Below, piece by piece: positions 54,406 to 55,991 of a stretch of 64,000 bases of DNA. A program made the translations under genes and the position numbers. A model generated the notes under the pieces. The model was not told the DNA's origin. It worked only from the letters and a program-made list of their open reading frames with translations, and ran no database searches. This DNA is from Bacilli bacterium (GTDB lineage Bacteria; Bacillota_I; Bacilli_A; RFN20; CAG-826), in contig JALCSW010000002.1 of the NCBI GenBank assembly GCA_022653695.1, positions 214,605 through 278,604 of the forward strand. The letters are read 5' to 3'. Positions within the stretch are counted from its first letter, which is position 1. The number at the start of each line of letters is the position of its first letter.

Positions 54406-54422
54406 ACGAAGCGAACCGAATA

Positions 54423-54450
54423 AAGGCACCGCCTTGGTGCCTTTTTTTAT
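54423..54450 (+). terminator. Rho-independent terminator
   Basis: AAAGGCACCGCCTTGGTGCCTTTTTTT. Confidence 0.9.
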
Positions 54451-54508
54451 CGACTGCCCTTTTTTGAGGACCGCTTGACCAACGGACGATTAGCCTATTC
54501 AAACGGGG

Positions 54509-54625
54509 ATTCCCTTGAAAAAGGTGCAAACTTGCCGAATGATTCCCTTGAAAAAGGTGCAAACCTATCAATCAATTCCCTTTAAAAAGGTGCAAACTTG
54601 CCGAATGATTCCCTTGAAAAAGGTG
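54509..54625 (+). repeat. Four direct repeats ATTCCCTTGAAAAAGGTGCAAAC at exact 33-bp period (last copy partial)
   Basis: Starts 54509, 54542, 54575 and 54608; 10-bp spacers TTGCCGAATG, CTATCAATCA, TTGCCGAATG. Leads into TATTATAAC and the DUF4143 gene. Confidence 0.97.
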
Positions 54626-54656
54626 TATTATAACAAAAGAAAGAAGGTTTTATCGA

Positions 54657-55991
54657 ATGTTTGAAAGAAAGATAACATCGATCTTCGAAAATTGGTATCA
54701 TTCAAATCGGAAAAAAGCCCTCTTGATCAAGGGGCTCCGCCAAGTTGGTAAAACTTACATCGTCAGAGACTTTTGTCAAAAACATTACCAAAATTTCATC
54801 GAGATCAACTTCAAAAACGACCGAACATTAAAGGAAGCTTTCGACGGGGACCTGTCCGTCGATCGCTTGATTATGAGGATCTCCGCTTTGAAACCAAACG
54901 CCAGGTTCGTCCCTCATAAAACCATCATTTTCTTTGACGAAATCCAGGAATGCGCCAGAGCGAGGGCTTCCATTAAACCTTTCGTCGACGACGGACGCTA
55001 CGACATAATCGCCTCCGGATCATTGCTTGGGTTACGCAACTACAATAAAAAACTCAACCAAGACGTCCCCGTTGGTTATGAGCGAATCGTTCCGATGCAC
55101 GCCCTCGACTTCGAGGAATTCCTTTGGGCGCGAGGGATTTCCAAAAACATCATTGCCTATCTGCGCAAGTGTTTCGCTGAGGAGAAACCGGTCGATGTCC
55201 CAATACACAAGGCGATGCTCTCCTACTTCAAGGAATATCTCGTCGTAGGAGGAATGCCTTCGATCGTTGACACGTTTTTGGAAAACCATGACCTCAACGC
55301 AACCATAAACGGGCAAAGGGATCTCATTGAGGAATACAAAGATGATTTCGGAAAGCATCTCGACGAAAAGGAAAACGAAGATATCGATCGAACTCTTTTG
55401 GCCAGAATCGAAGCGGTTTTCTCATCTCTGCCAAGCCAACTAGCCAAGGAGAACCAAAAATTCACATATTCAGGAATCGCGACCAAAGCCAAAGGACGCG
55501 ATTACGACAATGCCATTCAGTGGCTGGTGGATTATGGCTTGGCGATGAAATGCTTCAACCTACGAAAACCCGAGTTGCCGCTCGAAGGCAACAAAATCAA
55601 TGAATCGTTCAAACTTTTCCTATCCGATAGCGGCCTGCTTGTTTCCCTCTTGGAGGATGGCACCGCCGCAAATATCCTGCAAGGCGATCTTTACGTCTAC
55701 AAAGGAGCGATTTTCGAAAACGCGGTAGCCGATGCCATCGCCACGAAAAACGAACCTCTCTATTACTTCCGAAAAGATTCCGGGCTTGAAATCGATTTTG
55801 TCAAGCAAATCGATGGAAAAGCCACTCTCATTGAGGTAAAATCCGTCTCCGGAAGAACCAAAGCGGCCGATGAAGTCCTATCCCATCCGGATAAATACCA
55901 CGTCGATTCCTGCATAAAACTAGGGGAATACAACATCGGACACGGCGGGACCAAACTCACAATCCCATATTACATGGCCTTCCTTTTGTGA
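54657..55991 (+). CDS. AAA_14/DUF4143 ATPase with C-terminal PD-(D/E)XK-like motif (second copy)
   Basis: Walker A KGLRQVGKTYIVRDF, IIFFDEIQECARARASIKPFVDD, MHALDFEEFLWARG, GLEIDFVKQIDGKATLIEVKSVSGR. Confidence 0.93.
   Translation: MFERKITSIFENWYHSNRKKALLIKGLRQVGKTYIVRDFCQKHYQNFIEINFKNDRTLKEAFDGDLSVDRLIMRISALKPNARFVPHKTIIFFDEIQECARARASIKPFVDDGRYDIIASGSLLGLRNYNKKLNQDVPVGYERIVPMHALDFEEFLWARGISKNIIAYLRKCFAEEKPVDVPIHKAMLSYFKEYLVVGGMPSIVDTFLENHDLNATINGQRDLIEEYKDDFGKHLDEKENEDIDRTLLARIEAVFSSLPSQLAKENQKFTYSGIATKAKGRDYDNAIQWLVDYGLAMKCFNLRKPELPLEGNKINESFKLFLSDSGLLVSLLEDGTAANILQGDLYVYKGAIFENAVADAIATKNEPLYYFRKDSGLEIDFVKQIDGKATLIEVKSVSGRTKAADEVLSHPDKYHVDSCIKLGEYNIGHGGTKLTIPYYMAFLL

Follow-up and report, generated by a model that had tools for sequence, protein, structure and literature searches.

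A 33-bp-phased repeat array upstream of AAA_14-DUF4143 (PDC-S01) genes, a probable operator of the encoded ATPase-nuclease

Genes for AAA_14-DUF4143 proteins of the candidate defence family PDC-S01 are, in most of the homologues that we analyzed, preceded by a short array of direct repeats that are phased at 33 bp, overlap the predicted promoter and follow the sequence of the encoded protein rather than the host phylum. We consider it likely that this array is the cognate operator, or binding platform, of the adjacent protein, which would bind the copies side by side and repress its own promoter, with the gene and the array moving as one unit. The starting point was a stretch of 64,000 nucleotides of contig JALCSW010000002.1 from a Bacilli bacterium (assembly GCA_022653695.1), hereinafter the window, in which two such genes are found (Table 1).

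For the array upstream of the gene at 54657-55991, TRF gives a period of 33, 3.6 copies and a score of 185. The copy starts listed in the earlier note (54509, 54542, 54575 and 54608, hence spacings of 33/33/33) were recovered, and so was the identity of spacers 1 and 3, both of which read TTGCCGAATG, spacer 2 being CTATCAATCA. The description of this array as four exact copies holds for the spacing but not for the sequence: copies 1 and 2 match over all 23 bp, whereas copy 3 carries a G to T change and copy 4 is shortened. Nor does the 66-bp duplication unit proposed from the two identical spacers generalize to the family, since the spacers of other arrays are normally unrelated, and the core, which had been described as palindromic, is no more self-complementary than shuffled sequences (p=0.83). 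Allowing up to 3 mismatches, the 19-mer core has 3 matches in the window against 0.02 expected from shuffling, so that chance can be dismissed as the source of the array; across the whole 1.29-Mb genome, this core is confined to its own array. The -35 element of the gene itself is poor.

Table 1. Features of the window discussed in the text (positions are those of the window)
Feature	Position	Strand	Details
Other AAA_14-DUF4143 (PDC-S01) gene	25133..26482	-	family start codon (MFERKI) is the ATG at 26464
Second array	26530..26610	-	TTGCGAGTTACGGGA in three copies, starts 33 bp apart, upstream of the DUF4143 gene 25133-26482
Inserted unit (array and gene)	54406..56193 (approximate)	+	between acetate kinase and DHH genes; absent from 25 same-genus genomes
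Terminator-like hairpin	54422..54444	+	3' of the acetate kinase gene and 5' of the array
Repeat copy 1	54509..54531	+	ATTCCCTTGAAAAAGGTGCAAAC
Repeat copy 2	54542..54564	+	same sequence as copy 1
Repeat copy 3	54575..54597	+	single G->T change, CCCTTTAAAAAGG
Repeat copy 4	54608..54625	+	shortened to 18 bp, ATTCCCTTGAAAAAGGTG; continues as TATTATAAC into the putative promoter
Putative -10 box	54626..54631	+	TATTAT; inferred; 16 bp past the core start of copy 4, 25 bp before the start codon
AAA_14-DUF4143 gene	54657..55991	+	PADLOC candidate PDC-S01; predicted AAA+ ATPase, winged helix and PD-(D/E)XK nuclease
HepT-like/nucleotidyltransferase (MNT-HTH) pairs	57291-58098, 60994-61780	-	
Schlafen-group-3 helicase protein	58631-60493	-	AbiO/Nhi similarity
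MazG-like protein	60490-60897	-	

The assignment of the encoded protein to the AAA_14/DUF4143 class was confirmed. Compared with the PADLOC profiles, the protein matches PDC-S01 end to end (residues 1-443, E 4.7e-135) and, as described for this family (PMC12988326), combines an ATPase with a PD-(D/E)XK domain. The motifs GKT, DE, D380, E393 and K395 are all present, and among the homologues K32 is conserved in 177/177, D/E380 in 175/177 and K395 in 175/177. The AlphaFold2 model, which is of high confidence (pLDDT 92, pTM 0.90), can be read as an AAA+ module (residues 1-230), a winged-helix-like segment (approximately 240-325) and a nuclease (346-443); the conserved residues, the C-terminal module of the model and the literature (PMC12988326) all support the PD-(D/E)XK reading offered in the earlier note. 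In a fold search with this model, the best PDB match was 2qby_A, Orc1/Cdc6 on origin DNA (E 2.2e-6), a remote similarity (TM 0.30) that is nevertheless in line with a relationship of the predicted fold to DNA-binding AAA+ proteins; a sequence search of the PDB produced only a marginal match to the C-terminal region.

PDC-S01 has been reported as the fourth most common prokaryotic defence (candidate), with about 39,000 detected systems, an untested mechanism and, as for most PDCs, experimental validation pending (PMC12988326). We found no earlier account of repeats upstream of PDC-S01 or DUF4143 genes in a literature search that did not cover the preprint defining PDC-S01 (doi 10.1101/2024.01.29.577857); the main text of PMC12988326 mentions neither 'tandem repeat' nor 'promoter', and the array extends the description given there. 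In the one paper that our search found to name DUF4143, a gene of this class from Thermus is up 6.6-fold in the joint presence of a plasmid and Argonaute (PMC4406477), evidence at least that such genes can be regulated.

The homologue set comprised genomes of the genus and the order, a wider sample of the phylum and a species-genome scan that took in Lachnospiraceae, Treponema and other Spirochaetes, Fibrobacter, Bacteroidales, Coriobacteria, Endomicrobium and Proteobacteria, for a total of 188 homologues from at least six phyla. For each gene, the best internal repeat of the 250-bp upstream region at any lag from 15 to 120 was compared with dinucleotide shuffles. A significant repeat was detected upstream of 158 of the 188 genes (66/81 in the first set and 92/107 in the second), counts that do not represent independent events given that the homologues are related and were collected by similarity. 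The best lag was 32-34 or 63-66 in 154 of these 158 regions. The same test was positive for only 3/80 intragenic stretches, 1/25 other genes of the window and 5/33 downstream stretches. Autocorrelation, which the earlier note had suggested, yielded a clear peak at 33 bp with a lineage-specific repeat sequence: over 181 genes, the mean self-match score was 18.2 at lag 33 and 9.7 at lag 32, with echoes at 64-66, against approximately 4.1 in shuffles, and no further lag stood out between 10 and 120. The array is kept in close homologues. Inheritance of a single DNA segment does not account for the arrays, as their lineage-specific sequences show.

Members carried by plasmids of cultured Acinetobacter, Vibrio, Glaesserella, Parabacteroides, Agathobacter, Collinsella and Criblamydia also possess the array; in the members from Ruminococcus albus and Fusobacterium vincentii, the upstream repeat is below significance. 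A search for archaeal homologues among plasmids returned no archaeal record among the matches listed. Relatives in viral contigs are few (29 among 2.9 million), and 15 of 21 virus-borne copies show a significant repeat at some lag. Viral decoy sites were considered and rejected: the core matched one sequence context in two viral contigs, at one site each, with no array there. About 16% of the homologues lack a detectable array, including 15 with intact motifs, so that the array either is not strictly required or can degenerate beyond detection. Proteins with degenerate motifs are more common where no array is detected (6/21, compared with 6/156 in genes with an array). Three proteins from one genus (L182, L183 and L186 in genomes G170, G144 and G066) have N or D in place of the Walker B glutamate E95, and for two of them no array was detected either.

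A chain model of the repeats identified an array in 153 of 190 genes, with three copies in 97, four in 35 and two in 16. Of the 338 intervals between copies, 229 measure 33 bp and 82 measure 32 bp (311 in this range), and the median distance from the start of the last copy to the start codon is 52 bp. The usual array thus consists of three direct, polar cores of about 20 bp separated by variable spacers of about 13 bp. Between the copies of one array, the core is 73-87% identical and the other 13 bp are 34-44% identical, the former level being biased upward because the core is the best 20-mer chosen. Dyad symmetry at p<=0.05 was detected in only 6% of 146 homologous cores and, with core similarity on the opposite strand at baseline, a palindromic operator of the TetR/LacI type is not supported. 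In the Acinetobacter and Vibrio plasmids (L238, L239), the core recurs with a period of 32 bp and looks palindromic (TTTTATGCGCATAAAA-like), in contrast to the polar cores of the other arrays; in this gammaproteobacterial branch, dimeric binding may have evolved.

The arrays appear to overlap the promoters. In the subfamily that includes the gene at 54657-55991, -10-like boxes cluster 14-18 or 25-28 bp past the core start, and with a box at 27 bp, the TTGAAA of the core falls at the -35 distance (17-bp spacer). Compared with an equal-sized stretch 66 bp upstream, the region adjoining the gene has the stronger -10-like boxes (48/79 vs 29/79, p=6e-5).

Comparison of the arrays across the family indicates that the core evolves with the protein. 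Core similarity is 4.6-5.4 for pairs of proteins below 40% identity, where the shuffled-core baseline is 4.6, and rises to 7.9 at 45-50%, 9.0 at 50-60%, 10.1 at 60-80% and 13.8 above 80% identity (Mantel test, 0/300 permutations), whereas opposite-strand core similarity is flat whatever the protein identity, and spacer similarity in the same gene pairs is flat at 3.3-3.6. At 50-60% protein identity, core similarity is 9.25 between different phyla and 8.73 within a phylum. The core sequence therefore tracks the protein and not the host phylum, and the spacers track nothing; given that core similarity is equal within and between phyla and that the spacers show no rise, selection ties the core to its protein in any host. 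When partial Mantel tests were run by windows along the protein, no window was significant family-wise as the segment that tracks the repeat.

The second array of the window, which the earlier note had overlooked, is unrelated in sequence to the one at 54509, and two more intact AAA_14-type DUF4143 genes of the genome each have an array of their own, CTCGCTCCGAAA..TGTA in three copies and TTCGAAAAGTGCAAC in two. In a genome search, the cores of three genes were found only in their own arrays, except for one match with 2 mismatches for one core. Within a genome, the cores of close paralogues seem to be less alike than the cores of equally close pairs drawn from different genomes (similarity of 6.75 vs 8.12 and of 6.00 vs 9.56, based on only 6 same-genome pairs). 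The same genome also encodes a DUF4143 protein of a different subfamily (L002; G000 contig C2:195469-195960), and inspection by eye revealed no 33-bp array upstream of this gene.

The genomic context of the gene at 54657-55991 suggests mobility. In this genome (G000) and its sister G015, the array and the gene (approximately 1.8 kb) are inserted between the acetate kinase and DHH phosphoesterase genes, which abut in all 25 same-genus genomes that have a readable downstream flank and lack such a gene (0-51 bp, mostly less than 15); the empty site in these 25 relatives is repeat-free. The other window gene, 25133-26482, is flanked by a different gene order in relatives. Its ortholog in G015 (L093, contig C8:31815-33287) is broken by indels and its array has lost exactly 66 bp, that is, two units, a natural contraction of the array alongside the decay of the gene. 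Together with the identical spacers 1 and 3 of the array at 54509, this deletion indicates that gain and loss of units occur. Beyond the PDC-S01 gene, a small defence-like cluster is located on the opposite strand (57291-61780, minus strand; Table 1).

The most plausible mechanism, in our view, is that an Orc1/Cdc6-like AAA+ domain together with the winged-helix part binds about three direct sites of approximately 20 bp, 33 bp apart, in a cooperative manner; since 33 bp correspond to about three helical turns, the sites would lie on one face of the DNA. The bound protein would then repress its own promoter, which the array overlaps, keeping the nuclease-bearing ATPase scarce and/or parked, and the array may additionally keep the nuclease inactive. 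The gene and its array would travel between genomes as a single unit. From sequence comparison, autorepression appears to be the most likely role of the array, and we infer that the encoded protein itself is the binder and that its binding represses the promoter; activation by the array-bound protein instead of repression is possible. The ATP or nuclease state of the protein would control binding or repression, and the array and the protein would act jointly in phage defence. Of the two functions proposed in the earlier note, we strongly favour the autoregulatory, iteron-like operator: the array is family-wide, fixed in phase and gene-specific, overlaps the promoter and is faithful to the protein across phyla.

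Several other explanations have to be weighed against autorepression. An origin-like or iteron-like element, on which the Orc/Cdc6-like protein would assemble to act on DNA replication, on a plasmid or on a mobile replicon, autoregulation being incidental, would fit the best fold match, the plasmid-borne members and the haloarchaeal origins that are specified by a co-located cdc6, with diverse ORBs within one genome (PMC3936714, PMC3528665). This appears unlikely, however, given that most copies are single chromosomal genes without a second replication gene, with up to 11 matches per genome, that the window unit is inserted inside a metabolic operon, and that the nuclease site conserved in the family is not known from initiators. 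Slightly less probable still is binding of the array by a host transcription factor rather than the encoded protein: defence-island regulators that bind three direct promoter repeats are known (RptR, PMC12255303), but the cores differ among paralogues of one genome while being common to homologues from different phyla, and they occur at no other promoter.

The other function envisaged in the earlier note, a recognition or target site, here taken as the place where an ATPase-nuclease that homes or transposes would land, could account for the patchy distribution and for the insertion inside an operon, but is disfavoured by the repeat-free empty site in the 25 relatives, the absence of the cores from the rest of the genome and the lack of a flanking repeat copy at the other end of the insertion; we regard it as very improbable. 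In type III toxin-antitoxin loci (ToxIN), tandem repeats are located just upstream of the toxin gene and the tandem-repeat RNA is the antitoxin. The layout of PDC-S01, with tandem repeats of approximately 33 nt immediately upstream of a single effector gene, is similar, so that the repeats might likewise act as RNA; we give this equally little credence. The array folds no better than shuffles (RNA z +0.21; DNA z -0.79), an Rfam search with it yielded matches only far below the gathering score, free spacer takes up roughly one third of every unit, and the protein is not ToxN-like; moreover, the -10 box lies downstream of most copies, which therefore would not be transcribed from it. Neutral tandem duplication or replication slippage, to which the identical window spacers 1 and 3 and the exact two-unit deletion in L093 might be attributed, is the least credible of all: elsewhere the spacers have diverged and the cores are kept, the period is constant across phyla, and the controls lack it. 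As a general cause, it is ruled out by the contrasting selection on cores and spacers.

Among known systems, the closest parallels to the proposed operator come from archaeal initiators and a defence-island repressor. In haloarchaea, the Cdc6 encoded beside an origin is the one that reads it, and a single genome holds diverse ori-cdc6 pairs (PMC3936714, PMC3528665); Orc1-2 is a non-initiator Orc that regulates transcription (PMC9738581). PDC-S01 would share with Orc1/Cdc6 a predicted combination of AAA+ and winged-helix modules and the reading of repeated sites adjacent to the gene by the co-located protein, and likewise has several diverse pairs per genome, but differs in being bacterial, in the C-terminal nuclease and in the simple direct repeats at a fixed 33 bp in its own promoter, with no sign of origin function. 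RptR represses its own promoter in a defence island through three 9-bp direct repeats (PMC12255303), and the PDC-S01 arrays resemble its operator in the placement of three direct repeats over the promoter of a defence locus. Whereas RptR is a small repressor distinct from the effector and has a palindromic site of 6 bp, the likely binder here is the effector itself, and the cores are non-palindromic, about 20 bp long and repeated every 33 bp.

The near-universal 33-bp cis element, with a sequence matched to the protein, provides a concrete and predictable candidate DNA ligand for PDC-S01, such that EMSA and footprinting, reporter and orthogonality assays as well as structural work could be planned for any member of the family on the basis of its sequence alone. 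The array also offers a second criterion for the annotation of true PDC-S01 members, and the arrays amount to a large natural collection of candidate protein-DNA specificity pairs. A more far-reaching reading, possible although in our judgment doubtful, is that the array is a functional half without which PDC-S01 does not work: an ORC-like ATPase would assemble on three phased cognate sites adjacent to its gene, with this assembly or its loss switching the nuclease; assembly would be lost when foreign DNA titrates the protein or when the ATP state changes. If so, each PDC-S01 copy would combine sensor and effector in a cassette of one gene and one array, and would have a DNA address of its own.
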